A stretch of DNA of 64,000 nt. Origin: Polytrichum commune. Lineage: Eukaryota; Streptophyta; Polytrichopsida; Polytrichales; Polytrichaceae. Shown in pieces: positions 8,000-64,000 of this stretch (its first letter is position 1; every line of letters starts with the position of its first letter). Where the stretch lies: contig OX485807.1 in NCBI GenBank assembly GCA_950295325.1, forward strand, positions 15,589,001-15,653,000. Reading direction: 5' to 3'. A program made the position numbers and the translations under genes. Below the pieces are notes generated by a model. It had not been told where the DNA came from and searched no databases. It worked only from the letters and a program-made list of their open reading frames with translations.

Positions 8000-10900
8000 C
8001 ACGGTATTCGTATACGTAGAGTGCGTACGCAAATAAATAATATAGAGAATGCATATATAATACGTATATTTGAGGCGTACATTTTGTTCTGTATAAATAC
8101 CATGTATTTTACTCCTTTGCTTTTCGAATACTTTTTTGGTATTCGATATCTACACGGATGTATATTCACACAATCTTGGCCACGAAGATCCTTAATTAAT
8201 TTAGGCATTCTACTAATCACCCTTCCAGTCGTCCTAATTAATATGTCTTGTACGAGAGTTGGGCTCGAAACATAAACACATACAAATAGGCAAGTGTTAG
8301 TTTTGTAGATGGATAATGTTTGGTCATCATTGCCACTTATTATCATATTATCATATTTCTTAATTTCTGCAATATGGTGTGCTTAACACGGAATCAAGTT
8401 CACATGCTCATTTAGGTTTTATTCTACTATTAATACATCGTTGTTTACAAATTTTACATTCAAATGCAATTCGGTTTCCTTTGTGTCACACGACAAACTG
8501 TATGGATGTTATCTTCAAGAAGTAGGAAAAATGAATCTTGACTAAACTAGGTTAGTCACTGCAACATATGGACACTTGAGAACTAAACAGGTGGTTGACA
8601 TCAACAAGGCACACATTTTGTACACATATGACTATTCTTGTGATTTTCTCCAAACTCAGCTTACGCCCAAGAGTTTTGTATCGATTTGGTGCATGTGTGG
8701 TTCACGAACCTAACCTCCAAGTAGCAATGCACACAACCTAAGTCAACCTAAGTTTTAGGCGTCAAATGGACAAACCGTGACAAATAATCCACACAATCCA
8801 AAACTTGTAATTTACATAAGAAGAAGATTATGCCCCCCCCCCCCCCCTTATGCCCTCCACTTGAAGTTTCTTAGGGTGACCGATACATTCAAGCACATTC
8901 CAACTCACTTCAAAAAAGCCACATGTGCTAGCAATTTGTTTACAAAGTTCTAAACAATGTGCATTATTTCTACATGCCAATTATAAAAATGAGCCGCTAG
9001 GGGCCAAAGGCCCACCGCTGGTGGGAGAAGAAGTCCACAAGGAAGTTGGCAAAGCAGGAAGTTGATGAATTTCAACCTTCGTACCAAATGGAAAATCATG
9101 GGGGACCAACTCTTGAAAAAAGTCCCATTAAATTAAAGGATAACTCTAATATGCGAAACTCAATATACATGCAGGTAATTAAATTATATTGTAGCCTTCT
9201 AATCACACTTCTATTAATTCAACAAATTGAGCTCATGCACCTTGAGTAAACCGATCTGGAAGTAATTCCATCCATAAGCATAGAAAACTGCATGAAGCAT
9301 TGATGGATTACTACTATGCTATAAAACATGCTCCCAACATCGCCACAGCCGGGCACAACATGTCACTTTACTTGGCTCCTGCAAATCATGTGAAAAGTTT
9401 TTAAATGTTAATCTTCTTACCTCAAGTGTTAAGAACCTTGTAGGTTTGGACTTACATGATTTTATTTCAGAACTTGTTTCAAAAATTATTACGAGTTACA
9501 TATCCTACAAAAAGTAGGCGCAAAGCTAAAAGTGTCCATTTAAGGCCCATTTACCTTAGGGCTGATATTGTTTCAATTTGTAAGGTATAAAAAAAAACAT
9601 TTAAAAATTATGCATCACCCACAAGATTGATACTATAACCCTAAATCCTAAAAATCTCAAAAGGATACACTTGCCTCTCCCTGCTTATCAACTTCAGCCT
9701 TGCACTCTTAAAGAAGAGGTTGTTGTGCATCCACCTTTGCCTTTTTTCTTACATTTGATCAACTTCTAAAGCCTCTGTGACAGCTGAAAATTGGTCAAGA
9801 AAATCGAATGGTATTTTTGAAACTGGGGTTGACATGATCACAAAATGCATATAATAACAACATTAAGTGAGAATTATGCTGTCAAATTCACTTACATGTC
9901 ATTTTTTACAATCAGAATGTCAGATAACCACCAAAGAATCCAAACAAGAAAACAAGTGTAGAGTTCACAATACTTTGCTTGTTCTAATTGACATTATTTC
10001 TTCATGGGATTGAGAATGAGAATTTCCCGAAGTTCACATTATTGAATGAAGACATTTTTGTTCTTGTTCTTGTGATTGTTCCAGAAATTTAAGTTGATGT
10101 GGAATTTGTAATATATTAAACCCTGAGCTAATGCCCTCAAATCTATCAACCTATTCAATTTTAATTACCCATAAATTAAAGGAGGAGAATGCAACAACAC
10201 GAATAGCTGACCAACAATTGTAAATAAGTTACTATGAGTTGTGGATTCGAGTGCCGAGTGGATGGTACAAGCTACCGTGTTAATTTCGTTGAGTTAACGT
10301 AGAAGAACATTTCATCATAACATGAGCAACTTTATTAGCGTACGGGAATAAATCGCAACTTCCATTCATATATATAACATGCACAATCTGCACTTTCGTT
10401 AGCACACAAACGTATCTAACAACATATATAATCTACATGTACAAAAAAAAGACCACAACATAATAAAAAGAAGACGGTATTTTTATTATCTATTTGTGAA
10501 TTTCTTCTTGAGCATCCAATACAAAGGGTCGGCCGATGGGCGGTCTGTCATAATATTGTAGCTTCGGAAAGGCTCAGATTGGTACATGCATATTAGTCAT
10601 TTTTCCTTCCTATCAGCCATATACTTTCGTGTAGTGGTATAGACAATGTCCATATGAAAAATGTTGTGCAAATGGAATGTATAGTCTAGCGTCGCCCCTC
10701 ATCTTGAGATGTAGGGACCGGGCGTGTTGACGTAGTCACTTGTGTGATGATATCGTTTGGCCTATATACACTCATCTATTGTCCATGACATGAATTATGC
10801 AATGTAGTGAGTATTAAGAGTTATATCCAATGTAACGATGAAGCACAAATGCGAAATTATAGACGTGATAAATAAGATGTACCTACAGGTTATAGTGTAG

Positions 10901-12134
10901 ACGTTCAAAGATCGCGCTTCCCGTTTTTTGGACGGTAAGTTTTTGCATGAGCTGGAACCGGCGCATCATCGAACCCTGGAGTAAAATTAGATTTGCAGTT
11001 GGAGGAATAAGGACCAGTGGATCGATTTGCGTCTGGATGTTTTATTCCTTCATTGCACGCAATATAGATTATGCACGATCTTAGGACAGATCGGACCATG
11101 TTGTGGTGTCGGTGAATCCAAATTCATGGTAAAAACGAAACATTTGATGTGGTGCCAAATCTCCAAAGACGACGGTCTTAAGCAATGTTTTGGCTCTCCA
11201 AGCGAAGTGTGACTTCAATGTTTGCATATTGGACATGTAACACGTCTAGAAGCACCTTCAAGTAACATGAGAATGATGTGCATTTAGAAAATTACAGTGG
11301 TAATGATATGTATATGGATGGAAACAAAATTATTTGGTAATTTAAAAAAATAGTATTACATGATGCAATGAGTGTTCGAAACAATGAGTATAGGTGCATA
11401 AGGTAGAAGGTGTTTAAACCAACACTTTAAGCCATTGCGGGTACATATGGCCATATTACGGGGGGGGAATAGTGGATCATATTATTATTTCAACCCAAAA
11501 TAGCCTCAAATAAATAAAAAATATTTTCAGTGGAAGTATAATATTTTATGAATTGTCAAAGTCAAAACTAGTAGTTTCTTAATTCCACTAGCTAGGCCAG
11601 GCGAGTAAAGTGAGTGAGGAACCCAAGGACCAACTCATTTATTATATAATCTCAACCTTTACTAAATACATATTAGGCCTACCGGGCTTATAGTCTCATT
11701 AAGCCCCACCATGCAAAGCGTTAAACCAATTTGAATCTAATCATGAGCCAAACCTAGTGGATGTGTGTCAAGATCCCAACCTACTGAGTCTACCAACCAG
11801 GCCCTACACTTTAACCACTACACCTACATGACATATTCTAACCTCCTTCGTATCATGAACCAATCCCCTTGGCTTTGTGGGCCTAATTCCTTGGCAACAA
11901 CCTTGACTTTAGGTACCAACCTGCATTTTCACCATTGGTTATCATTAGTGTAAAATATTGTTAAGTTATTAAAAATGGTAATCGCAAATATTCATTTAGA
12001 TTTAGAATGGGTTTAGACTTTCATTAAGGTAGATGGGTCTTTAATGGTTATTTCTAATAACTATTTTTTATTCTAATTGTCTAAAATAAAATTATAAAAC
12101 ACATATAAACTAATCTAGCATACCTTCTCTTGTA
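8000..12134. other. AT-rich intergenic region with decayed repeats
   Basis: No intact gene is visible. Items seen: a run of about 14 C at 8834-8847, a dispersed-repeat piece at about 9045-9165 that matches 2820-2865 in inverse orientation, and a minus-strand frame at 10587-10478 ending PLYWMLKKKFTNR and a stop. That frame could be the last exon of a lost gene or of a transposon. A minus frame at 11099-10905 might belong to the same relic. A G run is at 11461-11467. Confidence 0.35.
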
Positions 12135-12866: not shown

Positions 12867-14754
12867 TTAAGTTTGTGGTACCCTTTCTCCAATAACGTTC
12901 TCCACATGCTCATCACCTACCTCTTCTTCATTAACCACATCCAAAGCATTAACAAACATTTCGTTGGGTCCCATTTTGTCATTCATGGTTGTCCGATTTA
13001 AAGGCCAAATACCCGTCGCGATAAACCTTTTTTTAATGTTTGTTGGGGTCATGGTTTTCTTCAAGGCTAACGAAACCCATTGGGCTAGGTCTTCCTTCGC
13101 GGCACCCTTATCCTTATTTCTAAAGGTCCAAAAATCCCGATATTTTCTTAAGGCCGTTTTGAACGGTTTGAAAACACTAATGTCCAAAGGCTGGATGGCA
13201 TGAAATGTGTGGCTGGGAATGGTAAGGAGATCTAGATCTATTTTCGGGCCATGTGCGCAACATCTAGGGTAACATGGGAGTTGTGTCCATCCATTATCAG
13301 TAAGTGCCGATTCTCATTAGAAATGCCATACATTTGACCAACGTGATGTAAGAAGTGATTAATCCACTCGTTGAACAATGTTTCCGTCATCCATTTTTTT
13401 TTACATAGCCATACAAGCTCCCTCCTTACACCTAATTATGAAGTTCTGCCTAAATGACCTACCCTTAAATATATAAAAATTAGGAATGCTAGAACCGGAG
13501 GCGTTGATGCACGACAATACAGACAACCATTCTCTCTCATCCGGAGTAACAATATGTACATTTCGTATCCCTCTTTTGGCCAAAACACATTCCCCGCCAT
13601 TCTTCCATGCTTGGGCCCCGGACTCATCATAGTTCCAAATGTGAGTGACCGGATATTTGTGTCTTGTGTACATATCCAATAAATTATCATATAAAAATGC
13701 AACATTCTCATGGCATAAACCCTTCGTCCTACACTGCTCCAATCCTTGCGCCACTCTAAGTGTCAAGGTTGGATTCCTTATTTTAAACCATTTTATCCAC
13801 CTGGACCGGAAATGCCCTTTGTAAAAGGTGTGTCCCGGTCTTGGGTGATCTCAACCACCTTCAATCGGCATTGACTCAAACTAATTGGATGACCTAATAT
13901 TTGCATTTTAAGAATCCACTTTACAAGTTCATTCTCCTCTTCAAATGATAGCACCCCTGATTTGCCACGTTTTCTACCTGTAGTTTTCTCAATAACATAG
14001 TCACATAAAGATGTTGTGGGAATTCCATAAAGCCTAGCCACTGTTTTTATAGGAGCCCCATCATCAACTGCAAGCATGGCTGCATTTAGATCTTCATCCA
14101 TCCAATTTCCATTTTTCCTAAGTTTTGTACATGTGCGTTCAGAACATGTACCATTCATAGTGCTTACATCAACACCTTCATGAATATCCCCTTGTTCCCA
14201 AGGATTGTTGTGAAGTGGGGTAACATAAAAAACATGCCCTCCTAATGCAAGAGTGTGAGCCGCTCGAGCCCTAGATGCATTGGAACCAGGGGGTAATCCA
14301 TCAGTATTATGAATTTGGATACCGCTTGAACTTCCTACTACACGGGCCCTTAGACCACCAAGACGGCGACCTCGAGCAACCAACATCTCGGGAGACGCCA
14401 TAGCACCCTCCCTGATTCCACCCATATCATGATTGATGTTTTTCTTATTAAGGAGTTAAATTGAGGGATTGGCTCGGGAAGTTGTGCAAAATCAGTAAAA
14501 CAATCTCCACTACGTGGATCAAAATCAGACTCCTCTCCACTTTCTTCCTCTTCCAAATCAATAAATGGTTCAATTGCCCCTTGGGCTCCTTGAATGTGAT
14601 CAAATAATTGATCGTTTTCTTCATCCAAACTTGTAACATAATCTTCTGCATGTGATCGAGCCCCCCTCATGGTTGCATATAATGAACTCAAGACATTATT
14701 GAAAATTAATAAACATGTGCACATACAAATAATGAGAGCACTTTTTAGTGTCAA
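12867..14754 (-). pseudogene. Pogo/Tigger-like DDE transposase, frameshifted
   Basis: Read on the minus strand in three frames, the relic gives an acidic N-terminus (ORF from 14754), a helix-turn-helix of psq/CENP-B type (NWMDEDLNAAMLAV, then ARLYGIPTTSL, about 14130-13990), and a DDE_1-type catalytic core. The core shows the three acidic landmarks in order: NYDESG (about 13640), LLIMDGHNSH (about 13300) and QPLDISVFKPFK (about 13180). It ends at a TAA at 12867. The frame breaks near 13800, at the poly-A run near 13395-13402 and near 13240, and the N-terminal ORF overlaps the next in another frame (14425-14350). The element is therefore dead unless these are assembly errors. Terminal repeats were not located by eye. 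Confidence 0.8.
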
Positions 14755-35932: not shown

Positions 35933-38880
35933 TCACTTGAAACATTTTGCCTCCAATAATTTATCACCATTGATTTCATCAGGTTCCTCAAAATAAGCGT
36001 TGACCAGAGCCTTTTGTGCTGGATCGGTTATATCCACCTTTGTCCACTCATAGAGCTCAGCATCGTAGCACTCCTCAATCACCATCTGTGGAACATCGGG
36101 TCCTCTGAAAAGAAAAGATGGAAGTTAATCGCAGCATAAAGATGACACTACGTAAATGCCAGTCATCATTTAACAACATAATTTATGCAAAGGAAAATCT
36201 AGTCTTCCACAGGCCAGGAGAATGATAGAGCTATGTCACAGCCATACACAAAAATACCATGCACGGGAAGAAACAAGACTAGAGACGCAGAAAACACAAC
36301 TCAAGAAGAATCATCAAGTTCAAGCTTTGGATGCATAATCACATAAAACCATATTTCGAAGTGGGTGTCATGTATCATACCTGAAGAGCCACACGCCCTT
36401 GATCTTGTAAGGGGGTGAATCACCAAGGATGCACATTTTGCTGAAAGAATACTTGCGTGCCAAATCCATTCTTTGAAAGAATCCCCCAACCTTGTTCATT
36501 GTTACAAATGTGACTTGGTTCTCCTCATTATGCTTGTAGTCACAGAACCACAATGAATAGCCTTCTGGATCAAACATCTCCCAGAAACCTGCCAAAACAA
36601 TTTGGACAACGAAAGATGTATATGTTGATCAATTTGCACCATAGAGGCAGGGCGATATACAGTTAAAGGCAAGCACCAGAAAATTTGTGGATAATACAAT
36701 GAACCACCAGATATGTAAATTTCAGATTGTCTCAAATCTCTAAGTAACATCAAAAGAATGGTGAGATGAAGAATATTGTACAGTATCAACACGAACAAGG
36801 ATGAGAATAGCTAGTCTACTAAAGAATGCATCCCTTGTCTGGCAAGGGCAAAGCACGCACCATTGATAGCCAAATGGAAGTCCCTGGCTTTCGTATTAGA
36901 GTACAATCGCTTCCAATTATCTAAGATCATGGGGCTTGGAGGTAGCAAATCCAATGCATTTTTAGATTTCTTCACTGGCGCCTCCTCCTCTTCAACATCC
37001 GGTTCCTCTGGCTGGGGAGCAGGTTTGGGAGGTGGCACTTCCACCTTCGCCTTGGGGGTTGCTTCTGCCTTCTTTCCACCTTCCTTCTTGCCTTTTCTAT
37101 GGCCTTCAGGCCTGGAAGTGCTACCCTTGTCATTCTTATTCTTATTCTCATTCTTATTTTCATTCTTATTCTCAATCTTATTCTCAATCTTATTCTCAAT
37201 CTTAGCAGGAGGAGGTCCTAGAGGCTTAGTAGCTTGAACAAAACCATCTCCCATAATTTTCTTAAATTGTGGCTGGTTGATAACTGTCCAGAAATACCTC
37301 ATTAAATGAGGATATTCAGCAGTAAACTCCTTTGTCAAAGCCAAGTGAAGTGGCAAGGTCAGGTTGCAAACAAGAACGATATCAGCCAAGGTCACAGCAT
37401 GGCCAACCAAATACGTTCGGGACGAAAGATAACCATTAAGAGCAGTCATTGCCCTCTTCAAGTTGTACAATACGAGAGCATCCACCTTTCACACCAGACA
37501 GTCCACAAACAAAATTTAGCTCATCTTCAAGTACTGCATTTACAAGTCCAACACCGTTCTCAAAAGTCCATAAATTTTTTTAATACATACAAACAAAATT
37601 ACCTCTTTATCAAAAGCCCCCATCCCTAGTCGAGGACCTATCCATCTCATCGCATTGTTGTCGATCTCAAAGGATGCAAAATCAATCCATTGCTCCACCA
37701 AACCCTGTAAAGATATTCTACGTCATCAAAGAAAGAACACCATTTTTCTCTTCAATCCTATCAATGACAGATTTCGTCCAGCAATAATGTTCCTAAATGT
37801 TCTTAGACCAAAGATGGATGACTTAGGCTCCCACACTTGTAGGAACAATAACAATGAAGTGAGCTCCAATCCCTCGAATGTTACACTTATTATGTCTTGA
37901 CTTCTAGACAAAAACAGATCGCTTACACCACAAAAAGATCTGTGACAAGAAACTGCAAACAAAATTCATAAATACCTCCTCATAAGCTGACCCCCCAAAG
38001 AGTCCAACATCCTTAAGCCGAGCCACTGCACACAGTCCAACAATTTTGTTATATTGTGCCAGCCAAAATTTGCGCTTGACTTCCAAGTGACCCACCTGAT
38101 ACTTGTACCACCTTCATCATAAAGTTCCTACTCATCTAAGGGTCGTGGATCCAACCTGGCCAGTAAAAAGACAAATGTCGGCAAAAGAGACAGGTACAGG
38201 AATCAAACCGTAGCGGGCAATTGCATTGCTCTCAAAGATCGGACCTTCCGGAGTCTCCATTACAGGTACCTGCATAGGAACAGAAGTGTTCAAAAATTTG
38301 ATTAGCATAATTCTTTACTTCCAGAGAGGAAGCATGTATGACCAAGTTCTTTTAGGTGAATCCTCAATGAAGAAATGGAGGCCCCTTTTTCTCTGCGACT
38401 TTCAAAATGCAGGGCATTCATTGGACAGCCATTTAGATTAATGCAAAGAGATGTAGGGAACCCTATGCTTGCGAACATGACTATGAGGATCTAGAGTAAA
38501 AGTATGTTACAATCTCTAAAATGAGGACCACATGTCACTAAATACTGAAATAAACATCCCATTTCTTGCATAAATTTGAGAAGGATAAATCAAATTTTGC
38601 TAATGCTTTAGTGCAATTACACTACTCTCGCCATTTTGCATGGCTACACACCTGGATTCGCCCATGAATGGGACAGTCGTACAATCGTCCCACATCAAAA
38701 ATTTGAGAAATACATTGAGAAAAGAAGTACCTTTCCAATTGGGGTCAGCTGCATGAATTCAGGAGTTTTGTTGCTGACTCCCATCTTGAAGTCAGGGACG
38801 GTCTGCACAATAACTCCAACATATTCGGCTGCAATAAGCGCCTTGAAGGCATTTTTGTTGTTGTGCTGAGCATGAATCAT
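35933..38880 (-). CDS. EEF1G: Translation elongation factor eEF1B subunit gamma
   Basis: Seven exons join in frame: 38880-38731, 38269-38209, 38025-37976, 37704-37603, 37485-36861, 36588-36381 and 36104-35933, giving 455 aa. Residues 1-75 are the GST N-domain (KNAFKALIAAEYVGV, NKTPEF, PEGPIFESNAIARYVARLK). Residues 90-200 are the GST C-domain (LVEQWIDFASFEI, YLVGHAVTLADI). A charged linker follows at 205-295, then the EF1G domain (NALDLLPPSPMILDNWKRLY, DPEGYSLWFCDYK, LARKYSF, ending AKCFK). The protein anchors the eEF1B complex that recharges eEF1A with GTP. The linker holds an expanded (K/N)(I/N)EN repeat at 216-240, making the protein longer than the roughly 415 aa usual in plants. The ATG follows a CAG acceptor directly. 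A mini-exon at 40374-40345 (MVGDGRAGSL, donor GTACGT) would splice in phase 0 and may supply the true start. Confidence 0.95.
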
Positions 38881-52054: not shown

Positions 52055-54480
52055 AATATGGGAGGGCGAGAAAGAGCGAGCGATAAAGTCAACCCCGCCT
52101 TAAAGGTGAGAAAGAAAAAGAAAAAGAGGTGAGAACAACTAAGAGAGTGGGGAGGTGGAGTTTTGAAGAGGAAAGCCAAGGGAGGAGGCCAAATCCCATT
52201 TTTCTTTTCGGGCAGCCCGAAAGATGCCGGGCAACGCGAGAAAAAAAGGAGTGGCTTGGAGGGGTCCCGAGAGGCAAGGAGGAGAAGGCTCATTATGCAT
52301 GGATGAGGCAAGAGGAGAGGGAAAGGGGCGAAGCGCTGCCTCGGCTTTGAGTTCTGGTTGCGGAGGGTGCACACACATGTTGATGCAAATAAAATGTGGA
52401 TCCGGTAGTGGCAGTGGGGTGATGATTAGGAAAGGAGGTTGCAATGAAGGGGGAAAGCGGGGAAAGTTACAGCATGAGCGTAGAGCGGTGAGCGTCATGT
52501 TTTCGTGAATTTCTCCGCTCGCTTTTCAAAATTTTATTGAAACATAAGGATCCTATTACCACTGAATTTGGTCCGGAGAAAACTATAAATGTATATTTTT
52601 AGGGAAAAGAGTACCCCAAATCCGTGGAAGGGGGTCCTACTGCAAATTTTTGTTATTATATATATAGTGAAATTAGGGCTGACGTCATCATTTATATGAA
52701 AGGGTGATTTAAATGAGGACCGTTCAAGGTTGAAATGAAATTGTGTTTTAATTAATTAACAAATTTATTTCAGTGTTTAAGGCTAAGGGCGTAATTAGGG
52801 CTGGCATCCTCGAAACAATAATTTAAATGGCAAAGTTTATACAATCCAACAAGTGAATATTCTTGTGCTTGTTAATCGGTCATGTAGGTAGGTCCCCTCA
52901 ATCTAGAATCTCAGTGGAGAGGGTAGTGCCGACAATTTTAGTAAAGAATATTGTTTGAGAGTATTAAACATTGTGTGGTTTATTGAGGAACATTATGCCT
53001 TTCTTCCAAATCTATCAAACACGTGTCTTCTTGGTGTCCATTCTTGGATACACACTTAACCAAAGACCATTTAAACATAATTATTTTCAATCAAGATAAG
53101 TAACCAAATTAGGTTTACTTACCTCATTCTTCAACTAAGTCATTGTCAAATTCTAGACGTTGATTTCCAAATAAGTTTTCCTTATTCTGATTTATGGATA
53201 ACTTATAAAGTAATATTGCTCTATCTTCTTATAGGTGGAATCTAGAGATGACCAGTCATGATCTTAAATTTTAAAAATGCCTAGCCAATGTTAAAATTCA
53301 ACTACGAGGCTTATGGTATTTACTACGCTATTTTGCCTAATTAGTGGGGGTTATTGTTTGCAGTTACGCATTGCTATAATATTTTACAGAGAGTATAATT
53401 TTTTACCCAAATGACACAAGTATTTAGTACGCACACTGAAGAATATGATGTAATCTAGTTAGTTAAAATATAATAATGTCGGTAAAAAGTTCTAGCAATA
53501 CGTAACCCCAAATGGTAACCCACACTAATAGGACAATTTGGTGGACCACCATCTTCCTTGGGCCGGGGAATAAAGAAAGAAAAGAAAAATAAATTCGGCA
53601 CTTTAAGTTGATGTGAACGAGGGCGGTTCACTAAGGGTTGGTTCAAAAGGGGTCCCAAGTCTTAGTTCACTTAAGGTCAATATGTGCAAACTTAGTTGTT
53701 GAAAGGATAAAAATTGGGATTTATTACTTCACGTGGGGTCCTAAGTCCTATGTCCCAACTTTGATGTGGATGCTTACATCACTACATGTTATTGGAGGTT
53801 AGGTTTGGAGGTTGCGTCGAGAGTTGGGTCGAGCAACCCATAAATCTAGGTCAATTTGCTAAGCCAATCATTTATACCGTTGATCTAAATCGGCTAAGCC
53901 CTCTCGAGTGTTGGTTTATACACCCTCTAAGGTAGAGACACCTATTCATGACAATTCAAGGGAATTGGTAACCTAGGAGTGCAAAGAGCATGGAGTGAAA
54001 ATATCAATGTGTTAGCAAATCCGAAAGGAAGGATTGGGCGTTGGAATATAAATTATTGGAGGCTTGAGCAATTTAACATAAATATTTGAAGCAAGGGTGT
54101 TGTAGACACCTATTCTAAGCCATAGACTTATTCAAAACAAACAAAGGAGCAATTGTGAAGCAACAAATATGATGGCGAGAAAAATTCATGTATGTATTAA
54201 AAATTGGGAGTTCCATCTAGTGACATCTCCCAAATGTCACTAGATATGACAAAGTTTTGTTAGATAGAATCAATTCAGTGTTCAAGTTAGAAGCGTGCAC
54301 ATGCATTTCAGTGCAAATGGCATAACTCAAACTTTCAAACTTCAACTTCTTTGAACTTCTTTGACAAGTCTACAATAGCTATGACACAAAGAAACTTGTA
54401 GATGTTTTATTTTAAAAAGAAATGGCCATTTCAAATGGCTACATTATGCACGTAACAAACCAGAAACAAACATATGGATA
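52055..54480. other. Purine-rich tract, then featureless AT-rich DNA
   Basis: About 52060-52500 is strongly purine-rich on the plus strand (GGGAGGAGG, AAGAAAAAGAAAAAG), which opens long frames on both strands. None of them has protein-like composition. About 53020-53075 carries a piece of family R1. Nothing else can be supported up to 54480. Confidence 0.4.
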
Positions 54481-54487
54481 GTCTTGA

Positions 54488-55968
54488 TCAAGGTGAACCA
54501 ACATCGAAACTCTCGTCACATTGATCAGCCTCAACATCCATGAATCTAAGCACTGTAGGGTTGAAAAATTGACGTGGAAAATCTGAAAGGATTGGAGATG
54601 GGGCGCGTATGAATTCTTGTGCTATACGTTCGGCATATGAAGGTAAGGCGAATGAAGTAGGAGGACTCATGTAGACATCACCGTGGCGGATCAAACGTCT
54701 TGCGAGACCTGCGTCACTAAATAATAAAACAAAGTCAGCATGACAAATTATATGAATACATTAAATATTTGAGAGACTTAAGACATGCAGTTAAGACGCA
54801 CCGCAATATTTGCGACCCTTCTTCTTCTTTGGCGCAATGTCTTCGTCGGAATCAGAGTCTGTGGTTGAATCCGCGCGCTCTTTTGGTTGCGGGATCGCAT
54901 CCATGTAAGGCTTGAGAAGCGCCTCAAAGATTTCTGAATCCGGCTCCAATGCGATGAGGTGTCGGTTCGAACGTTGGCAAGCAATGACAGAAGCACCTGC
55001 AGTTTGGAAAACGGAATTTAGAAAGTGGAATTCAGTTTCAGTTGTTGTAAACAATGAAGGGAGATATTGAAAACCTGTACTAGGGCTCCAGTCGCAGACG
55101 ATATCATGCTCGTCTGTAAGACACTCGATGAAGCACTGAACAAAGGATGGGTCCTTCTCACGCGAGCCACGCCAAGGAAGTCCAGTAGGGCGTAGAAGCT
55201 GGGACTCGGTTGTCGTGAAGTTCGTCAAGTCATCGCGCTCTTCGGGAAGGATCTCCATTTGTACGAACTGCGGTCGCAATCGGCGAGTACGGAACTTGGA
55301 ACTAAGGCGTGCAAAGACCTTAATGTTAAAGTTATGGGTCTGTAAGAAAACCTCAAGGATTAGAATATATTGAAACTGATTGTCGGATTGAGAAATTCAA
55401 ATTATGAACATAAAAGATAATACCTCTTTCTGGTGTGGAAGGGAGGAGGCCATGGGAATGGGATTATAGCCCCACCAATCCCGGACAATCGTAAAATCAT
55501 AGATTTTGATTTTACTATCTAACTTCTTCTCGATTCGACGGTCCTTGGGATGGAAGAGGAGAATAACTCCGTCATCGGTCAAGTGACAATCTGCAAAGGC
55601 GAAGAGTTGGTCAAAGTAGTCTGTCTCTCGCTTGTTCCACGACGGTACGGACATGGGAGAGATGACAGGCACGACCAAGTCTTCTGGAGCGTCAACAATC
55701 ACGAGATCAATTCCAGGATGCCTAGGCCGCATTTGCATCGATTTACAAGGATAAGTACGGCCGACCCCGATCTGTATGAATAAGAAAAAATGGAAAGCAT
55801 GAGTTACCGATAAAAAAAAACCTCGCTAGTCCAAGACAATTTTGAAATTGATAGAGTTAGTGAGAGTTGAGAGTTGAGAGTTGCGAGTTGCGAGTTGCGA
55901 GTTGAGTTGAGAGTTGAGAGTTGAGAGTTAAGAATTAAGAGTTGAGAGTTGAGTTGAGAGTTGAGAGG

Positions 55969-56014
<46 letters not shown>

Positions 56015-56029
56015 TTGAGAGTTGAGAGG

Positions 56030-56068
<39 letters not shown>

Positions 56069-56084
56069 TTGAGAGTTGAGAGTT

Positions 56085-56119
<35 letters not shown>

Positions 56120-56191
56120 ATTGAGAGTTGAGAGTTGAATTGAGAGTTGAGGGTTGAGAGTTGAGTTGAGAGTTGAGAGGTGAGAGTTGAA

Positions 56192-56225
<34 letters not shown>

Positions 56226-59200
56226 ATTGAGAGTTGAGAGTTGAGAGTTGAGTTGAGAGTTGAGAGGTGAGAGTTAAGAGTTGAGAGTTGAGTTGGGATT
56301 GTGTGACCTTGATAATGTGGTCTACAATACGGACAAGTTGCCGATCCATGAATTTCTGGTGTTCAGACTGGTTAAGCAAGGCACAGAAGTTTCTATGCTC
56401 AAGAAACATCGGCAGGGTCGTCTTAAATGGCGAAGACGAAATGACACCTACACCTTTCGGGGGTGGTACACCACGGCCAGAGAGTGTGACACGAAGATTT
56501 TGGCTAGATTGAACATCCAAGTTGGAACGTGGGGGTGATGGCGGATTAGAAACCGTGCGTTGCGAAGTCTGAGTCGAAGCCAAAGGAGCTCCTGCAGGAA
56601 TTTGAACACCTGCAGGTGAGGCTGCCACAACGGAACCGTCGCGAGAATGAACCTTCCCTCGACGTTGAACTTTTGGCTTCGGAACATGTTCAGGCTGAGT
56701 TGCCTCGTCGTCGTCGTCGTCGTTCAAGTCAGTGACCATAGGAGCCGCTCCTCCTGCAGATGGTTCCGGGACAGGGACGAGGTGTTTCTCCTCCTCAGGA
56801 ACGAAGTTCTGTGGGCACTCGAGGAACCAACCACCTGTGAGCAACACCTCATAGGGAAATCGATTGCGTTGGTCTTCGGTCCAAAGTCCATCAATAGGCG
56901 TTTGGGTAGACGGTTTGAGCTCGACATGAGCCGGAACTTCCCAAGCCGCAAGAGCACGTTTGGCGATGAGCTCTTGCTTCATGTACCTGCATATATGCGT
57001 TACATTTAGGAAGGGTGATAGAGACAAAGAGAACACTGAATCAAACAAGAAGCCAAATCATACAAACCTGTAAAACAAGCGGCCCGCCAAAATTCCACCT
57101 TCAATCTTAAGGAGCTCTAAACCTTTGAGAAACCTTGGGCTTGCATTTTCCGAGAGGTAGAAGGGGAAGGCCTTCTTCCACAATAGCGATCTCCATTTCT
57201 CCACGTATTCCGCCGGCTTGAGAACAACGGAGCTCCACTCAATGTTGATCTTAAGTTTAGCGACATAGTTGTCCATGTGGTCTTTAAGGAAAGTAGACAA
57301 CTGACATACATTATGAAACGATGGGTGTTAGAAGTAACGACAATTTCAACGGATTAAAAATGAAGAGCCTAGAGGAAGTAAGTATCGTCATACCTGAGCC
57401 CAAAGAGAAGCCCTTGGCAACCAGACGTCGAGGAATTTGTCCTTCATTGGACGATCTAGTGGAAATCGGTAGGCTGCCCGTTCCTCGTCCGTTCCGTTCC
57501 ACAATTGCAACCATTTCCCTTTGAAGTCAGGATGGACCTTGGTGGTTGCAATTTTATGAAGTCGCTCAACGGTCAAGTCCAATGATTTCCCGCTAGTATA
57601 GTGTTTATTGAGCTGCGTGGAAAATGGAGAGTTGAGGGTTGAGAGTTGAGTTGAGAGTTGAGTTGAAAGTTGAAAGTTGAGTTGAGAGTTGAGAATTGAG
57701 AATTGAGAATTGAGAATTGAATTGAGAGTTGAGAATTGAGAATTGAGAATTGAGAATTGAATTGAGAGTTCAGAGTTCAGAGTTCAGAATTGAGAATTGA
57801 GAATTGAGAATTGAGAATTGAGAATTGAGAATTGAGAATTGAGAATTGAATTGAGAGTTCAGAGTTCAGAGTTCAGAGTTCAGAATTGAGAGTTGAGAGT
57901 TGAGAATTGAGAATTGAGAGTTGAGAGTTGAGAATTGAGAATTGAGAGTTGAGAATTGAGAATTGAGAGTTGAGAACTGAGAATTGAGAGTTGAGAATTG
58001 AGAATTGAGAATTGAGAATTGAGAATTGAGAACTGAGAGTTGAGTTGATAGTTGATAGTTGAGAGGTGAGAGTTGAATTGAGAGTTGAGAGTTGAGAATT
58101 GAGAATTGAATTGAGAGTTGAGAATACCTCTTGTTCAAATAACTCTCCATTGGCTGGGTTGGCGATTGCAACCATCTTGTCGAACCTTTGGCTGCGCCAA
58201 TGCTTGACACACTTCGTGATGGCCTTGTCCATCGCACTCCAGACTCCAGGCCCAGTCCTCTCATTCTCGGGCACAGTCTCATAATAGTTCGAGCAAACAG
58301 CGTCGGATGCAACAACGCATTGTCTCTGTATGACAATAATTAAGATGTAAGAAACGCATGATGCACTTCATAATATGAAAACGATAAGCACATAACTTTA
58401 GAAAACTTACCGCGTGGAGGAATTTAACAAAAATGTCCATTGTGAGTGGATACCATGACGGTAGACGGGGTTTATAAGCCTCGCAAATAGCCATGTCCTC
58501 TTTGCTAATAAGACCTTTGAAATCAGAAAGTTTGAAGGAGCCGAAGGTTCGAATTCTTTGCAACTTGGCAATAGTACTGTCTTGAACATGATCATGTTCC
58601 GTCGACCTGTGAATGAAGATATGAGTATTAAAAAAAAGCTTCCATGGGTAAATGGAATATGAAATTAATGGAAATGGATTTGCAAGTATACTACCAGTTT
58701 ATGTCGTTCATGGCGTTGAGAAGCATTGAGCATTGCCCACGTGCGTCGAGAACAATACAGTCAACCGAAATGTACCAGTCATGATTATTGGAATGGTACT
58801 TGTGGCTGTAATCCATCCAAGCCGTCACGCGGTGATTACCTTCGTAGACATAAAAGTATTTGTTCCGAAACTGATGGAGATCAGGATCAGACGACAAGTA
58901 CTCTTCGAACTCATTATTAGCAGACTTCCATAGTGGGTTAGACCAGATGGCGTCATCCTCTCGAACCACTAGGTCCTTGTCCGTGATGTCGAAAGGAGAC
59001 ACATACAAAACTCGATCTCCTTCTCGATACCCTTTGACGAACTCGTTCGCCAACATCTCGACGTCGAAATCGACAATTGGACGCACCTTCGGGTAGGTCT
59101 TGAGACAGCAAAAAGAAATAAGGAATCGAGACTTCTTAATGGGTTTGGTGCGAAGATTGGAGATGACAGTATTGTAGTCACTCTTCTGCAGCAATCTCAT

Positions 59201-62200
59201 CTCATTTGTGCTCCACATGGGGTCCTTGTCCTGCAGATGAGGGGGCATGTGAACAATGCCAAGTTCAACACCACCAGGAGGACGTAAGGGATTTGACGAG
59301 CGTTTGTCGCTTGAATCGGGCGCTTCTTGGGTGGCCTCTTGTGTGGTATCGGCAGCATGTTGATCGGAGGATGGGACATCCTCCTCCAAGTCGGCAACAT
59401 CTAGGATTGAAGAATGTTGAGGGGGAATGCCACAATCCTCCTCCAAGGAATCTATCGAGGGAGGTGGGACTTGCTCGGGTACGGGAACATCGGATAATGT
59501 CATCTGGAAGGTAGGTAAATGAAACACAATACACTTAGGAAAAAAATATGAAGTACTATAAACGACGACTAGCTAAGTTATAGCAAGTAAACCTATGACT
59601 AAACGACGACTAGCTAAGACAATGTTGAAACCACTAAGCATCTCGGACAAGTAACTGTTGTACTCGGCTCCATGTACTCTCTGTGAAGAAACCTACAAAA
59701 AAAATGAATATGGATTAGAATAAATAGGCCATCATCACATGACAAAAAATACTCATATAACCTATAGCAGAAAGGACCCCTGGGGTCACCCAATTTCCTA
59801 AAGCAAACGGCAAAAAATCAAACTATATACCCTATCCTGCCTCTGAACCACAAGCTCATCATCGGCGCACAAATTCATCAAGGCAGAAAGGACCCCTGCG
59901 CCAACGCAGGGGTCACCCAATTTTCTAAAGCAAACTGCCGAAAATCAAATTATATACCCTATCTTGCCTCAGAGCCAGAAGCTCATCATCGGCGCACAAA
60001 TTCATCAAGGCAGAAAGGACCCCTGCGCCAACGCAGGGGTCACCCAATTTTCTAAAGCAAACTACCGAAAATCAAATTATATACCCTATCTTGCCTCAGA
60101 GCCAGAAGCTCATCATCGGCGCACAAATTCATCAAGGCAGAAATGACCCCTGCGCCAACGCAGGGGTCACCCATTTTCCTAAAGCAAACTGCCGAAAATC
60201 AAACTATATACCCTATCCTGCCTCTGAACCACAAGCTCATCATCGGCACACAAATTCATCAAGGCAAAAAGGACCCCTGCGCCAACGCAGGGGTCACCCA
60301 TTTTTCTAAAGCAAACTGCCGAAAATCAAATTATATACCCTATCTTGCCTCAGAGCCAGAAGCTCATCATCGGCGCACAAATTCATCAAGGCAGAAATGA
60401 CCCCTGCGCCAACGCAGGGGTCACCCATTTTCCTAAAGCAAACTGCCGAAAATCAAACTATATACCCTATCTTGCCTCTGAACCACAAGCTCATCATCGG
60501 CGCACAAATTCATCAAGGCAGAAAAGACCCCTGCGTCAACGCAGGGGTCACCCAATTTCCTAAAGCAAACTGCCAAAAATCAAATTATATACCCTATCCT
60601 GCCTCAGAGCCAGAAGCTCATCATCGGCGCACATATTCATCAAGGCAGAAAGGACCCCTGCGCCAACGCAGGGGTCACCCATTTTCCTAAAGCAAACTGC
60701 CGAAAAACAAACTATATACCCTAACCTGCCTCTGAACCACGAGCTTATCATCGGCGCACAAATTCATCAAGGCAGAAAAGACCCCTGCGCCAACGCAGGG
60801 GTCACCCAATTTCCTAAAGCAAACTGCCGAAAATCAAATTATATACCCTATCCTGCCTCAGAGCCAGAAGCTCATCATCGGCCCACAAATTCATAAAGGC
60901 AACAATGACCCCTGCGCCAACGCAGGGGTCACCCATTTTCCTAAAGCAAACTGCCAAAAATCAAACTATATACCCTATCCTGCCTCAGAGCCAGAAGCTC
61001 ATCATCGGCGCACAAATTCATCAAGGCAGAAAGGACCCCTGCGCCAACGCAGGGGTCACCCAATTTCCTAAAGCAAACTGCCGAAAATCAAATTATATAC
61101 CCTATCCTGCCTCAGAGCCAGAAGCTCATCATCGGCGCACAAATTCATCAAGGCAGAAAGGACCCCTGCGCCAACGCAGGGGTCACCCATTTTCCTAAAG
61201 CAAACTGCCGAAAATCAAACTATATACCCTATTCTGCCTCAGAGCCAGAAGCTCATCATCGGCGCACAAATTCATCAAGGCAGAGGGTATAGCAGAAAAA
61301 TGTACCGCAAAAACAAACCCTACTAGCCTCTGAGCCGCGAATGGTCTTCATCGGCACTTGACAACCACCAGGCAGATGGGTCTCACAAATTCAATCACAA
61401 CTTGGTTCAGAAGCATCGTGACAATCCGCCATCTCATTGCAACTATCAACAGATAATATTTTAGGGTTTTAAAATCACACTTACCTCACAATGCTCCCTT
61501 CACAATGGACCCATTGAAATAACTCGATGAAGATGAAGGACTTACGTTCTCCAAATCTTCGTCGACGTTTTCGGGGGTGCCCTCCAACCTTGTAACTGCA
61601 CATCCTCCTTCAGCTGCCATTTCCTAGTAACATATATTGCAAATTCAATTCAATCAAAGGCGGTCATTTGCAATAAGATCTGTTATGGAGACCTTCCCAA
61701 ACAATCCATCGCTACCCGACCTGCTCGGAGGGTCCCGCTCTGTCGGATCAGTCTACCAGGTGGGTTGGAGGTGTCTGCCCGAACTGCCGAGTGTTCCCAG
61801 TTATCCAGCCATTTTGACTCCCACGTTCATTAATTTTTTCGTTTATAATTGAATATCTGACTGCCAATATTGAGGGTCATGTAGATTGATTTTTTATTAA
61901 TGTGTCGTTTCATCGTCAAGTGCCACTTACTTATACTAAGACGTTATCAACACGTACATACAACAGGCAACAATCAGGTGACAAACAAATTTTAGAAACT
62001 AATTCCTAGATATTAAGTTCCTAGAACAAATTCCTAGAACAAACGTCTATGACATAAGTTTGTATGATATTATAGGCATCATAAGCCATAATTTATCTTT
62101 GTAACATCTACCCTTTGCCTCTGTTAGGTTCACCCCACGGGATCGCACGATAAGCAAGTAAGACTATGACTGAAGTTTACTACTCATTTTCAAGGTTTTA

Positions 62201-62606
62201 GGGTCTTGGAACTTACAACTTTATCGATCCCTTCTTCGTCACTGTCGTTTTCGAATCCCAAAGAATCACTCCTCGATGATGAGGGCCTTCTACATTCTTG
62301 CTCTTCAATTGCATTGTCCTTTTCCCCTCCATCGTCTTCTTTTTCACCATCAACATTTTCTACAACTGCATCCAAGTTCAACGGCCGCATCGTGATAGTC
62401 TTTCTGAACATTCCTGGCTCGTCCTCATCGTTCTTATCTTCTTCATCTACTATTCGATCGTCTTCGCAAGAACCCGGGGCATCCCTCTTCCGCAACACGT
62501 TCCGTCGCAAAGCCTTGGCCCCACTGAATTTTATACCACCTCTCTTCTTCTTCCTCCCCCGCCCTACCTCATTCACTTTGTCTGTTTTACTACTCGTAGC
62601 CTCCAT
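54488..62606 (-). CDS. ParB/Srx-like domain fused to a degenerate DNA amino-methyltransferase-like domain
   Basis: Twelve exons join in frame by GT-AG sites: 62606-62217, 61623-61546, 59503-58695, 58606-58411, 58325-58128, 57612-57394, 57300-57068, 56986-56308, 55771-55424, 55339-55075, 54996-54802 and 54708-54488, giving 1276 aa. Residues 1-130 are basic then acidic (NLS GRGRKKKRGG). Residues about 290-430 resemble ParB/sulfiredoxin folds: VRPIVDFDVEMLANEFVKG, then YVYEGNHRVTAW (GNHR 378-381), then LLNAMNDIN. Residues 430-760 are Trp-rich, unrecognised. About 790-900 are Pro/Ser-rich. The C-terminal part follows permuted amino-methyltransferase order: motif IV-like DLVIVDAPEDL (DAPE 961-964), DDGVILLF, RDWWGYNPI, then motif I-like DWSPSTG (1133-1139), SNRHLIALEPD (Glu1156). 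DPPY and FxGxG are both altered, so catalysis is doubtful. A Lys-rich run ends exon 11. The domain calls rest on motifs; exon structure is well supported by phase. Confidence 0.8.
55851..56293 (-). repeat. Heptamer minisatellite filling intron 8 of the ParB-methyltransferase-like gene
   Basis: On the gene strand the unit is AACTCTC, repeated dozens of times with shortened units (CTCAACT) mixed in. It begins about 14 bp after the donor AAG|GTCACA at 56307 and fills most of the 536-bp intron. Because 7 and 3 are coprime, all frames read a 7-residue peptide repeat (LNSQLST), an artefact. Confidence 0.9.
57627..58122 (-). repeat. Related heptamer minisatellite filling intron 5
   Basis: Units are AACTCTC and the variant AATTCTC, with some AACTCTG. 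The array starts about 5 bp after the donor GAG|GTATTC and runs to within about 15 bp of the acceptor at 57613. It clearly belongs to the same motif family as the array in intron 8 but has a variant of its own. Confidence 0.9.
59766..61290 (+). repeat. Tandem array of about twelve 127-bp hairpin-bearing units in intron 2
   Basis: Identical anchors recur every 127 bp (for example at 59964, 60091 and 60345). Each unit has a perfect hairpin (arm GACCCCTGCG, loop CCAA, complementary arm) followed by CACCCA, CCTAAAGCAAACTGCC, TATATACCCTAT and GCTCATCATCGGCGCACA. Units come in two alternating flavours (GCCTCAGAGCCAGAAG and GCCTCTGAACCACAAG). The first unit at about 59768 has lost its hairpin loop. 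The array lies inside the 2042-bp intron 61545-59504. Confidence 0.95.
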
Positions 62607-63221
62607 GGTTGGATACTTCGATCAATGAACACAAATTTGTAAAACAACAATAACACCCTAACCCAACTACAACACAACTTGTATTTGAATGACCTAGTCC
62701 TCCGAATCCCTTTCCTTTATATTTAATTTCTAGCAAGCTATGTCATCGAGTTATAATCCCGCGTTTAATAAAAACGCGGAATCCGAGATTAGATATCTTA
62801 CAACACTGACATCAATTACTAATCTCTTTCGAATTTGTCAATATATTTACGCATCTCCCCTGACAATGTCGGCCTCCAGAAATTTTTGAATTGTCATGTT
62901 TTTCCATTTAAGGTACAGACACCTTTAGGGTTTAACTTCAGCATTTCGGCATAGCATATATTGGGTTATTTTTGGGTGCGTATAAAAATTAATCTATACC
63001 GACATGTATCATATTTGGTGGTCAGGAAGTAATGACTATTACTGGAGTTCATTCTAATCCTACATGAAACATGTTGTCCAGAATTTACATGAATAAATAT
63101 TGACTATTAATTGATCTAATAAGTTGTCAATTATTCGGGTATTGTTGTCTACCCAAATTGTATATAATACCCGATTATTGCTACATTTTTCCTTCATGTC
63201 ATCTCATCAATATCTTCTCCA
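62607..63221. promoter_or_regulatory. Divergent promoter region
   Basis: This 615-bp gap separates the minus-strand gene (start 62606) from the plus-strand gene (start 63222). A telo-box TAGGGTTT is at 62926-62933. A TATA box, TATATAATA, is at about 63170-63178, about 45 bp before the plus-strand ATG. Confidence 0.45.
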
Positions 63222-63659
63222 ATGGGTACTGACTCACGTCTCCTAAGCCTTGCTCCATTAGGTGCTTCTAGTTCATCTCAAATTCACACAACGTTGTCCA
63301 TCGATGGTTCTGCAGACGTCAAGAACATGAAGAATGCCAACCCACCTGACTGCTCAGTTACTCCTGCGGTCGTGGTTCCCACTCCTCAACCACAGACTCC
63401 ATCTTTGCAGGCAGTTGATGCATCACTGATACAGAACAAGTCTACTTTCAAGATTCATCCCTATTCTAGAGCAGGGGTTATTAAACCTGGCATTTACTCT
63501 AGATCCATATTGAGGAGTGCCAAAGGTCAGAAACTCGATTGCGCAGGATGCACTGCAGTTCGTAGTTTAGGGATTGATCATTGTCATAAACATGACAATG
63601 ACAAATATGGCAAAGGGCCCCATATGGCAAAGGCCCCATTTTTGTCTCCCACTCCATGA
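63222..63659 (+). CDS. Small intronless gene, Cys/His cluster protein (145 aa), unknown function
   Basis: The 145-codon frame starts at ATG in a good context (CTCCAATGGG), about 45 bp after a TATA box and a pyrimidine-rich leader, as expected of a short transcription unit. The N-terminal 70 residues are Ser/Pro/Thr-rich (PAVVVPTPQPQTPS). The C-terminal part is basic and has a possible metal-binding cluster, CAGCTAVRSLGIDHCHKH (C-x2-C-x9-HCHKH). I recognise no family and see no signal peptide. It is divergent from the ParB-methyltransferase-like gene, so co-expression is possible. Alternatively it is the first exon of a spliced gene that includes the frame beginning at 63853. Confidence 0.5.
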   Translation: MGTDSRLLSLAPLGASSSSQIHTTLSIDGSADVKNMKNANPPDCSVTPAVVVPTPQPQTPSLQAVDASLIQNKSTFKIHPYSRAGVIKPGIYSRSILRSAKGQKLDCAGCTAVRSLGIDHCHKHDNDKYGKGPHMAKAPFLSPTP

Positions 63660-63852
63660 TGTATTGTTCACACTACTGTTTATACAGATTATTAATATTT
63701 CTCATGATTAACCAAACATTTTCTGACTACATTCTGTACATGTTTTGGATGTCCAACGTCTTCATCAACCTCTCATGTATATATCCCATTGTTTCTTTTC
63801 GATCCCCCTTTTGCAAATTCCTTCTCACATAGCATTGTCAAATTGTTTCTCA

Positions 63853-64000
63853 ATGTCTTCCGCTGCTGTCCAAGCTCCACTCGTCGATGTTATCGAACTT
63901 GTTTCTCTTGGATCTCTTATCCCTACATGCATACCTCCTGGCCCTGATGGAACCGCTGATCTCACTCCCCAGTGGCTATCCATTCGTTTTGGTTTCGATG
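63853..64000 (+). CDS. Start of a gene running off the right edge (partial)
   Basis: An open frame begins with ATG at 63853 (peptide MSSAAVQAPLVDVIELVSLG, then PTCIPPGPDGTADLTPQWLS) and is still open at the window end, 49 codons. TGTATATATCCC at 63775-63786 is a possible TATA box, followed by a T/C-rich leader, the same layout as the gene 0.6 kb upstream. The composition is protein-like. No family can be named from so short a piece. It could be a second exon of the 63222 gene. Confidence 0.5.
   Translation, partial: MSSAAVQAPLVDVIELVSLGSLIPTCIPPGPDGTADLTPQWLSIRFGFD

Follow-up and report, generated by a model that had tools for sequence, protein, structure and literature searches.

A ParB-like and methyltransferase-like gene carried by a large, high-copy DNA transposon of the moss Polytrichum commune

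A 64,000-nucleotide stretch of the Polytrichum commune genome (the window) contains a series of minus-strand reading frames that a sequence-only reading had joined into one plant gene, combining a ParB-like with a DNA amino-methyltransferase-like domain and proposed to be a domesticated nuclear gene. The locus raises the question of whether this gene is real, what its two domains are, and whether it belongs to the moss or to a mobile element.

Gene structure and domain homology

Joined at their splice sites, 12 minus-strand exons between positions 62606 and 54488 yield a protein of exactly 1276 amino acids, with the frame kept throughout and a single terminal stop. All 11 introns are of the GT-AG type, and the G+C content of the coding sequence is 49%, versus 27 to 46% in the introns. 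The exons and the two key motifs are as follows, with the basis of each assignment in parentheses.

62217..62606, minus strand: exon 1, basic and acidic N-terminus (splice reconstruction and sister copies)
61546..61623, minus strand: exon 2, the least certain exon (splice reconstruction)
58695..59503, minus strand: exon 3, ParB-like domain (splice reconstruction and relatives)
58829..58843, minus strand: EGNHR motif within exon 3 (conserved among relatives)
58411..58606, minus strand: exon 4 (splice reconstruction)
58128..58325, minus strand: exon 5 (splice reconstruction and Ceratodon proteins)
57394..57612, minus strand: exon 6 (splice reconstruction and Ceratodon proteins)
57068..57300, minus strand: exon 7 (splice reconstruction and Ceratodon proteins)
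56308..56986, minus strand: exon 8, including a poorly conserved linker (splice reconstruction and Ceratodon proteins)
55424..55771, minus strand: exon 9, methyltransferase-like domain, motif IV side (reconstruction, Ceratodon, profile comparison)
55682..55693, minus strand: motif IV position, DAPE replacing DPPY (copies compared)
55075..55339, minus strand: exon 10, motif X side and start of motif I, DWSPST (reconstruction, Ceratodon, profile comparison)
54802..54996, minus strand: exon 11, end of motif I and motif II side (reconstruction, Ceratodon, profile comparison)
54488..54708, minus strand: exon 12 and stop codon (splice reconstruction and Ceratodon proteins)

Relatives were found in the moss Ceratodon purpureus, as three proteins (P0001 to P0003) that are approximately 50% identical and start in exon 5. 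P0001 runs gap-free across seven of the eleven joins, 5/6 to 11/12; P0002 and P0003 are interrupted by a gap at joins 5/6 and 7/8, respectively, and follow the other joins. The four upstream joins have no match in these three proteins, which begin in exon 5. In the same genome, family A, the family of the window copy, has 15 other ParB exons, and 12 of them have exon 1 no more than 20 kb away (two of these 12 sister copies carry a stop and one is split in two pieces); exon 1 also occurs at 7 further places with 30 to 32% identity. A chance join of frames is ruled out by the intact frame and GT-AG introns, the Ceratodon joins, and the recurrence of exon 1. Together, these comparisons confirm the predicted 12-exon spliced gene as real, in agreement with the sequence-only reading. 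In protein database searches, in which the best 8000 and best 7999 candidates were scored, the matches listed, apart from the Ceratodon proteins, were only short frames, most of them unnamed.

The C-terminal part has a permuted motif order, DAPE followed by the motif-I-like DWSPSTG. The sequence-only reading was right about this order but not about the motif itself, which is DAPE rather than DxPP-like. It had also proposed a PF01555 search: the window domain alone scores 12.8 bits and P0001 scores 18.3 bits, both below the 26.7-bit cut-off, but four of five sister frames of the same genome pass it (32.4 bits over positions 1 to 216 of 221; 35.3, 29.9, and 29.8 bits over shorter stretches). A blastp match (E 3e-27) connects these sister frames with the window protein. 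When aligned by hhalign against seven phage methylases, the A and Ceratodon sequences alone gave 95.0% over 53 columns, and 97.7% over 193 columns was reached with families B and D added; the hhalign E-values come from one comparison each with few sequences. PDB sequence searches with the methyltransferase part led no further than DpnA at E 0.14 to 0.65. The PF01555, blastp, and hhalign comparisons establish the predicted C-terminal domain as a homologue of permuted (beta-order) N6/N4 DNA amino-methyltransferases, the class originally suggested.

The catalytic consensus of beta-class N6/N4 methyltransferases is [DNS]PP[YFW]. None of the copies examined from A, B, or Ceratodon has it: motif IV reads DAPE in all eight A copies and all three Ceratodon proteins and DIPE in all three B copies, while the D-family frames have DIPD (four of five) or DIPY (one of five). 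With DxPE in place of a DPPY-type motif in both families and in Ceratodon, as far as copies were examined, methylation by the protein is doubtful. Exons 9 and 10 show a pN/pS of approximately 0.2 over eight A copies, and stops occur in exon 9 or 10 in three of the seven other A copies checked.

In the first half of the protein, the GNHR signature noted earlier is borne out as EGNHR, which is kept in 48 of 54 relatives of the ParB exon. Among these relatives, 13 match phrog_1033, a 'ParB-like partition protein' (best E 0.0021; the window's own exon is not among them), and four match DUF6551 (best E 0.028). A PHROG search with the window's own ParB exon returned nothing up to E 0.5, and a PDB profile search gave no ParB support, its sole match being a ribosomal protein (E 0.83). 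An hhalign comparison with seven ParB domains from prokaryotes or phages detected no profile similarity, and tblastn against phages with two ParB exons gave one record each at E ~10. ParB homology of exon 3 is supported but not shown on these comparisons, and appears weaker than the methyltransferase homology. Median dN/dS values of the ParB exon are 0.21 and 0.09, with values of up to 1.88 in some A-A pairs.

A DNA transposon as the carrier of the gene

The gene is accessory cargo of a large, high-copy, two-gene DNA transposon. The element extends from 52459 to 66384 (13,926 bp), past the end of the window, and has the following features.

52449..52458, plus strand: 10-bp target-site duplication, copy at the low-coordinate end (its partner lies at 66385-66394, beyond the window)
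52459..64000, no strand: part of the transposon inside the window (end common to two other copies, to the base)
52459..52494, plus strand: terminal sequence, an imperfect inverted repeat of the other end, with GCATGAGCGTAGAGC in common
63799..64000, plus strand: start of the transposase-like gene, continuing to ~66026 beyond the window and oriented away from the ParB gene

The two 10-bp target duplications of the window element match perfectly. Transposon copies are 99% identical, with sharp common ends and unrelated flanks, and end sequences were located at at least 101, 238, and 32 genome places (0, 0, and 2 with reversed controls); the last of these is the 52459 end of the window element, with 31 exact matches. 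In family B, where the two ends were paired by nearness, 10 of 12 elements have 9- to 11-bp duplications and two have no matching duplication. ParB-like places number at least 143, dispersed over all seven large contigs; copy counts from the genome search are lower bounds. The defined ends, target duplications, and dispersed copies place the gene inside a transposon.

The window element's transposase is divergent and broken, with one stop, one frame break, and the last part missing. Genome-wide, a ParB exon is listed within 30 kb of 35 of the 59 scored transposase loci (random mean, 1.2; maximum, 5), and all 35 pairs are divergent, as in the window element. The other 24 loci have no listed ParB exon, the lists being lower bounds. 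Transposase loci are 97 to 100% identical in 34 of 59 cases. Mutator-like transposons (MULEs) are characterized by 9- to 11-bp duplications and a SWIM-like motif. The moss elements resemble them in duplication length and in having such a motif, CxCx19CxH, in the frame following the transposase frame; unlike MULEs, they carry a ParB-methyltransferase gene, and their transposase matches no transposase or SWIM model in Pfam up to E 1.

These observations refute the proposed domestication of a nuclear gene. The intact frame of the window copy beside a broken transposase would suit a gene retained by the host, but at least 143 dispersed ParB-like places, and a location enclosed by transposon ends and a perfect duplication, make host domestication very improbable; a single-copy host gene is refuted for the window copy by copy number and transposon ends. 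A remnant of an endogenous virus is, if anything, even less credible: phage and prokaryotic ParB-methylase fusions do exist, but the architecture is that of a DNA transposon. One scan of viral_contigs, run with two short peptide patterns taken from the protein's central region, gave 48 pattern matches, none of which was confirmed as a relative; this one scan and the transposon structure make a viral identity unlikely. The suggested descent from a phage or giant virus is not demonstrated.

Palindrome arrays and the possible role of the protein

Intron 2 contains a repeat array, and palindrome arrays lie just 5' of the ParB exon in both families examined, A and B.

59782..61284, no strand: tandem array of period 127 inside intron 2, with 11 copies of the palindrome GACCCCTGCGccaaCGCAGGGGTC at 59891-61184

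Against these 11 copies in the window element, three B elements have 28, 28, and 50. Of the A palindromes listed in the genome, not every one lies beside an A-family ParB locus. The A and B repeat units are unlike outside the palindrome, and a common origin of the arrays is therefore not claimed. The array palindromes are candidate binding sites. Words of the terminal repeats match the A arrays and spacer no better than shuffles do (53/60, 25/25, 24/60, and 5/60 shuffles reach the observed score). The B repeat unit also contains AGTATGTGAG of the terminal repeats, which would suit the transposase as a user of the array too; the array could alternatively serve the transposase or be a neutral satellite.

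The best overall explanation, to which we give slightly better than an even chance, is a palindrome-binding accessory protein of the transposon built on a methyltransferase-derived scaffold. The ParB-like domain would recognize the palindromes of the array in the 5' region of its gene, in a manner similar to that of ParB or iteron-binding proteins at repeated sites. Binding at the array, and perhaps also at the ends, may mark and organize the element DNA, and the bound protein may regulate the divergent gene pair or assist transposition. In A and B, the C-terminal domain appears to keep a motif-I-like SAM site, but its catalytic motif no longer has the aromatic residue, which makes a SAM-sensing or DNA-binding scaffold likelier than an active methylase. 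A more specific version, entertained tentatively, is a eukaryotic counterpart of ParB-parS, in which the protein loads at the tandem palindromes of the element that encodes it, the palindrome being specific to each family, and then spreads or forms a clamp that organizes, regulates, or marks this DNA, the methyltransferase-derived domain now being a SAM-dependent or catalytically dead module.

Active self-methylation, a role proposed for algal proteins in PMC12477816, is possible but on the improbable side. Here, the protein would bind its element and deposit N4-methylcytosine or N6-methyladenine to escape silencing or license transposition. The beta-order homology with a partly kept motif I, the constraint on the methyltransferase-like domain, and DIPY in one of five D-family frames point this way; the missing aromatic (motif IV is DxPE in every examined copy from A, B, or Ceratodon and DIPD in the other four D frames) points against it. 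Less likely again is a catalytic ParB-like domain acting as an NTP-regulated nicking DNase that aids excision or replication, an activity discussed for phage polyvalent proteins and ParB-methylases in PMC5512222. The strong conservation of the GNHR-type motif speaks for it, but the ParB fold itself is unproven. If palindrome binding holds, the palindrome-binding scaffold protein would constitute a eukaryotic ParB-parS-like system. Methylation despite the altered motif would mean a transposon writing 4mC or 6mA in a plant genome, and its absence a methyltransferase retained for another function.

Related proteins in algae and phages

PMC12477816 describes a 1104-amino-acid protein with ParB and DNA methyltransferase domains in Sola1-1_Ec32, a 21.5-kb transposon of Ectocarpus, and cites similar proteins in transposons of green and red algae (Iyer et al. 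2011; Petroll et al. 2025). The statement that no plant counterpart is described thus stands for land plants, within the open-access papers among the matches listed, and fails for algae. An apparent mention of ParB beside the moss Physcomitrium in two of the papers listed proved to be Parbu, the short form of a virus name. Both the moss element and Sola1-1_Ec32 are large DNA transposons in which a single protein, of comparable length in the two, combines ParB-like and N4/N6-type methyltransferase domains and has its gene on the strand opposite to the transposase. Compared by description and not by sequence, the algal element differs in its host, a brown alga, and in belonging to the Sola-1 superfamily. 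Relative to the passages on algal transposons in PMC12477816, the moss host, giant elements with 10-bp duplications, palindrome arrays, and altered motif are new here. The arrays, not mentioned in those passages, offer a concrete candidate target, and ParB-methyltransferase proteins of eukaryotic transposons become testable in a moss, where copy number is high and some copies are young.

Phage and prokaryotic ParB-N6_N4_Mtase fusions are described in PMC12704722, and we found ParB-methylase fusion frames in contig C12, Halorubrum virus HRTV-28, and a Desulfofustis phage. Unlike the moss copies, the frames of C12 and HRTV-28 retain DPPY; the Desulfofustis phage protein is without PPY. The phage and prokaryotic fusions share the moss domain order, ParB followed by a beta-order methyltransferase.

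Gene model of the ParB-methyltransferase-like protein

Twelve minus-strand exons, running from 62606 to 54488 in the window with the reading frame kept and GT-AG introns, yield a protein of 1,276 aa. A 5.8-billion protein database was searched twice, and three proteins of the moss Ceratodon purpureus (P0001 to P0003) were the only matches among the best 8,000 and 7,999 candidates. Their alignment starts in exon 5. P0001 is gapless across the seven joins downstream of exon 5; a segment at join 5/6 is missing from P0002 and another at join 7/8 from P0003, the remaining joins being followed by both. When exons 3 and 4 served as the query, 59 of the 211 candidate proteins had an E value of 10 or less. 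They were mainly unnamed short-contig frames, and Ceratodon KC19_VG030900 (P0023) was the sole match with a named organism. This ParB-like model carries EGNHM in place of the ParB-like signature EGNHR, and its locus tag name suggests a location on the V sex chromosome.

Exon 1 was found at 14 other genomic places (75 to 98% identity), and 12 of the 15 other ParB exons of family A, the group of close copies to which the window gene belongs, have an exon 1 copy within 20 kb. More distant matches to exon 1 occur at seven places (30 to 32% identity). Exon 2 is the least supported exon. Satellite-like 7-bp arrays (TGAGAGT, GAGAGTT) at 55861-56292 and 57627-58123 occupy most of introns 8 and 5. Elsewhere in the window, two further features were detected:

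36811-37488, minus strand, elongation factor 1B gamma gene (GST_C and EF1G domains)
13793-14455, minus strand, Tc5-transposase DNA-binding match (weak, under the cut-off)

Transposon ends, copies and transposase

The ParB exon search yielded at least 148 matches at at least 143 places (143 of 1,189 candidates scored). These places comprise family A, with 16 close copies (the window's among them), and a further 127 of 42 to 53% identity, which are family B and others. Up to one common right end, three B copies share 99% identity; beyond it they diverge. This right end was detected at 101 places, the left one at 238 (controls, 0). When ends were paired by nearness, 12 B elements of 12.6 to 23.4 kb were obtained (16 to 20 kb in nine), of which ten have 9- to 11-bp duplications and two have none. 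The right end of the A element, at window position 52459, matches that of two other copies to the exact base and occurs at 31 exact places and one with three mismatches; the reversed control gave two matches, with up to three mismatches allowed. The other end lies at 66384, on the contig beyond the window. The two ends, flanked by a perfect 10-bp duplication, GGGGGAAAGC, give the window element a length of 13,926 bp.

The B elements also contain a 766-aa transposase frame, divergent from the ParB gene. At least 59 transposase loci were found (59 of 2,424 candidates scored), and the 97 to 100% identity of 34 of them points to recent movement. A listed ParB exon lies within 30 kb of 35 of the 59 loci, divergently in all 35, compared to a mean of 1.2 and a maximum of 5 under random placement. 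The window element has a homologous transposase in two pieces (52% and 71% identical), with a stop, a frame break and the last part missing. No Pfam transposase model matched the transposase. The frame that follows it contains a CxCx19CxH motif, which, together with the duplication length, suggests a MULE-like element.

Domain comparisons and probable selection

Passages of PMC12704722 report ParB-N6_N4 fusions in phages and name sulfiredoxin as the commonest eukaryotic representative, and phage ParB domains are discussed as nucleases in PMC5512222. No land-plant ParB-methyltransferase case was found in the part of the open-access literature surveyed. Bacterial-looking ParB and ParB-methyltransferase genes are present on the short contigs C10, C12 and C23 of genome G000 (L085 to L091), which are probably assembly contaminants.

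In the ParB-like part, 48 of 54 relatives carry EGNHR; the others show DGNHR (three), EGNHM, KDNHH or a gap at this position. Among the 16 PHROG families matched by these relatives, phrog_1033 ("ParB-like partition protein") is the most frequent (13 of 54; best E value, 0.0021). The window's own ParB exon matched no PHROG family up to an E value of 0.5, and is one of four of the 54 that match DUF6551 (best E value, 0.028). Neither a PDB profile search nor hhalign against seven ParB domains returned anything for the ParB-like part.

The methyltransferase part of the window protein matches phrog_3008 (DNA methyltransferase; E value, 1.7e-4). PF01555 matches it under the cut-off, at the end of the profile (E value, 0.11), and P0001 also stays under the cut-off (0.0024). 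Family D of the same genome has 577-aa methyltransferase-like frames at several chromosomal places (L092 to L094, L096 and L097). Four of five scanned D frames pass the PF01555 cut-off, one covering positions 1 to 216 of 221; the fifth, which ends ahead of motif I, gave no PF01555 match. A D-family copy carries the same ParB-like region upstream in two adjacent, unjoined frames, with DGNHP replacing DGNHR. D aligns with the window protein over 584 columns (24% identity; E value, 3e-27). Against seven phage methylases, a profile of A and Ceratodon sequences scored 95.0% over 53 columns, and one of seven sequences from A, Ceratodon, B and D scored 97.7% over 193 columns, placing DxPE opposite DPPY and DLPY. 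Based on the D-frame PF01555 matches, the D-window alignment and the phage methylase comparison, the C-terminal domain is an amino-methyltransferase homologue in the beta order proposed by the sequence-only reading. The aromatic residue of the catalytic motif IV is required for catalysis. This motif reads DAPE in all eight A copies and all three Ceratodon proteins examined, and DIPE in all three B copies examined (one with a stop shortly downstream); of the five D frames, one has DIPY and the other four have DIPD.

Eight A copies, compared in 28 pairs, give a summed pN/pS of 0.20 in exon 9 and 0.19 in exon 10; introns 9 and 10 of these copies are 88 to 100% identical to those of the window. 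Stops occur in four exon-copy combinations of exons 9 and 10, in three A copies. Of 30 ParB exon copies retrieved, 27 could be used, giving a median dN/dS of 0.21 in A pairs (range, 0.05 to 1.88; 87 of 91 pairs) and 0.09 in B pairs (0.08 to 0.67; 29 of 78 pairs); dS reached saturation in all 182 A-B pairs and in 41 of the B pairs. Because of these low pN/pS and median dN/dS values, selection has probably maintained the protein in the lineage of active elements.

Palindrome arrays beside the ParB exon

Intron 2 harbors a tandem array of a 127-bp unit with 11 copies of the palindrome GACCCCTGCGccaaCGCAGGGGTC, ten of them identical and the eleventh deviating in the loop only. Of the 25 inverted repeats in the window element with a stem of at least 9, 23 lie inside this array, compared to a mean of 0.5 and a maximum of 3 in mononucleotide shuffles, the array copies being non-independent events. 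Genome-wide, the A palindrome has 169 matches with up to two mismatches (control, 0). Most of the 100 matches listed have an A-family ParB exon no more than some 30 kb away; those at C3:16.2M have an A-type end and no ParB exon among the matches listed.

The B palindrome, GAGGCCTCGGATCCGAGGCCTC, is perfect, 22 nt long and unlike that of A. It is located between both genes, with 28, 28 and 50 copies in three elements (up to three mismatches), and has 1,903 exact sites in the genome (control, 0). Comparison of the A and B repeat units revealed no likeness outside the palindrome. The array lies 279 bp from the ParB exon in A and some 400 bp in the B element B1, and each palindrome folds as a single strand better than 199 of 200 shuffles. 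The palindromes are candidate sites that the ParB-like domain may bind.

The palindrome spacings in the arrays of the window, C2:69.44M and the B elements show a weak agreement with whole turns of 10.5 bp (96, 117, 127, 169, 179 and 274 bp, with 246 bp off). In B1 (L053 and L039), a 307-bp array unit around 9157-11966 shares the 10-mer AGTATGTGAG with the terminal repeats, a match reached by none of 60 shuffles.
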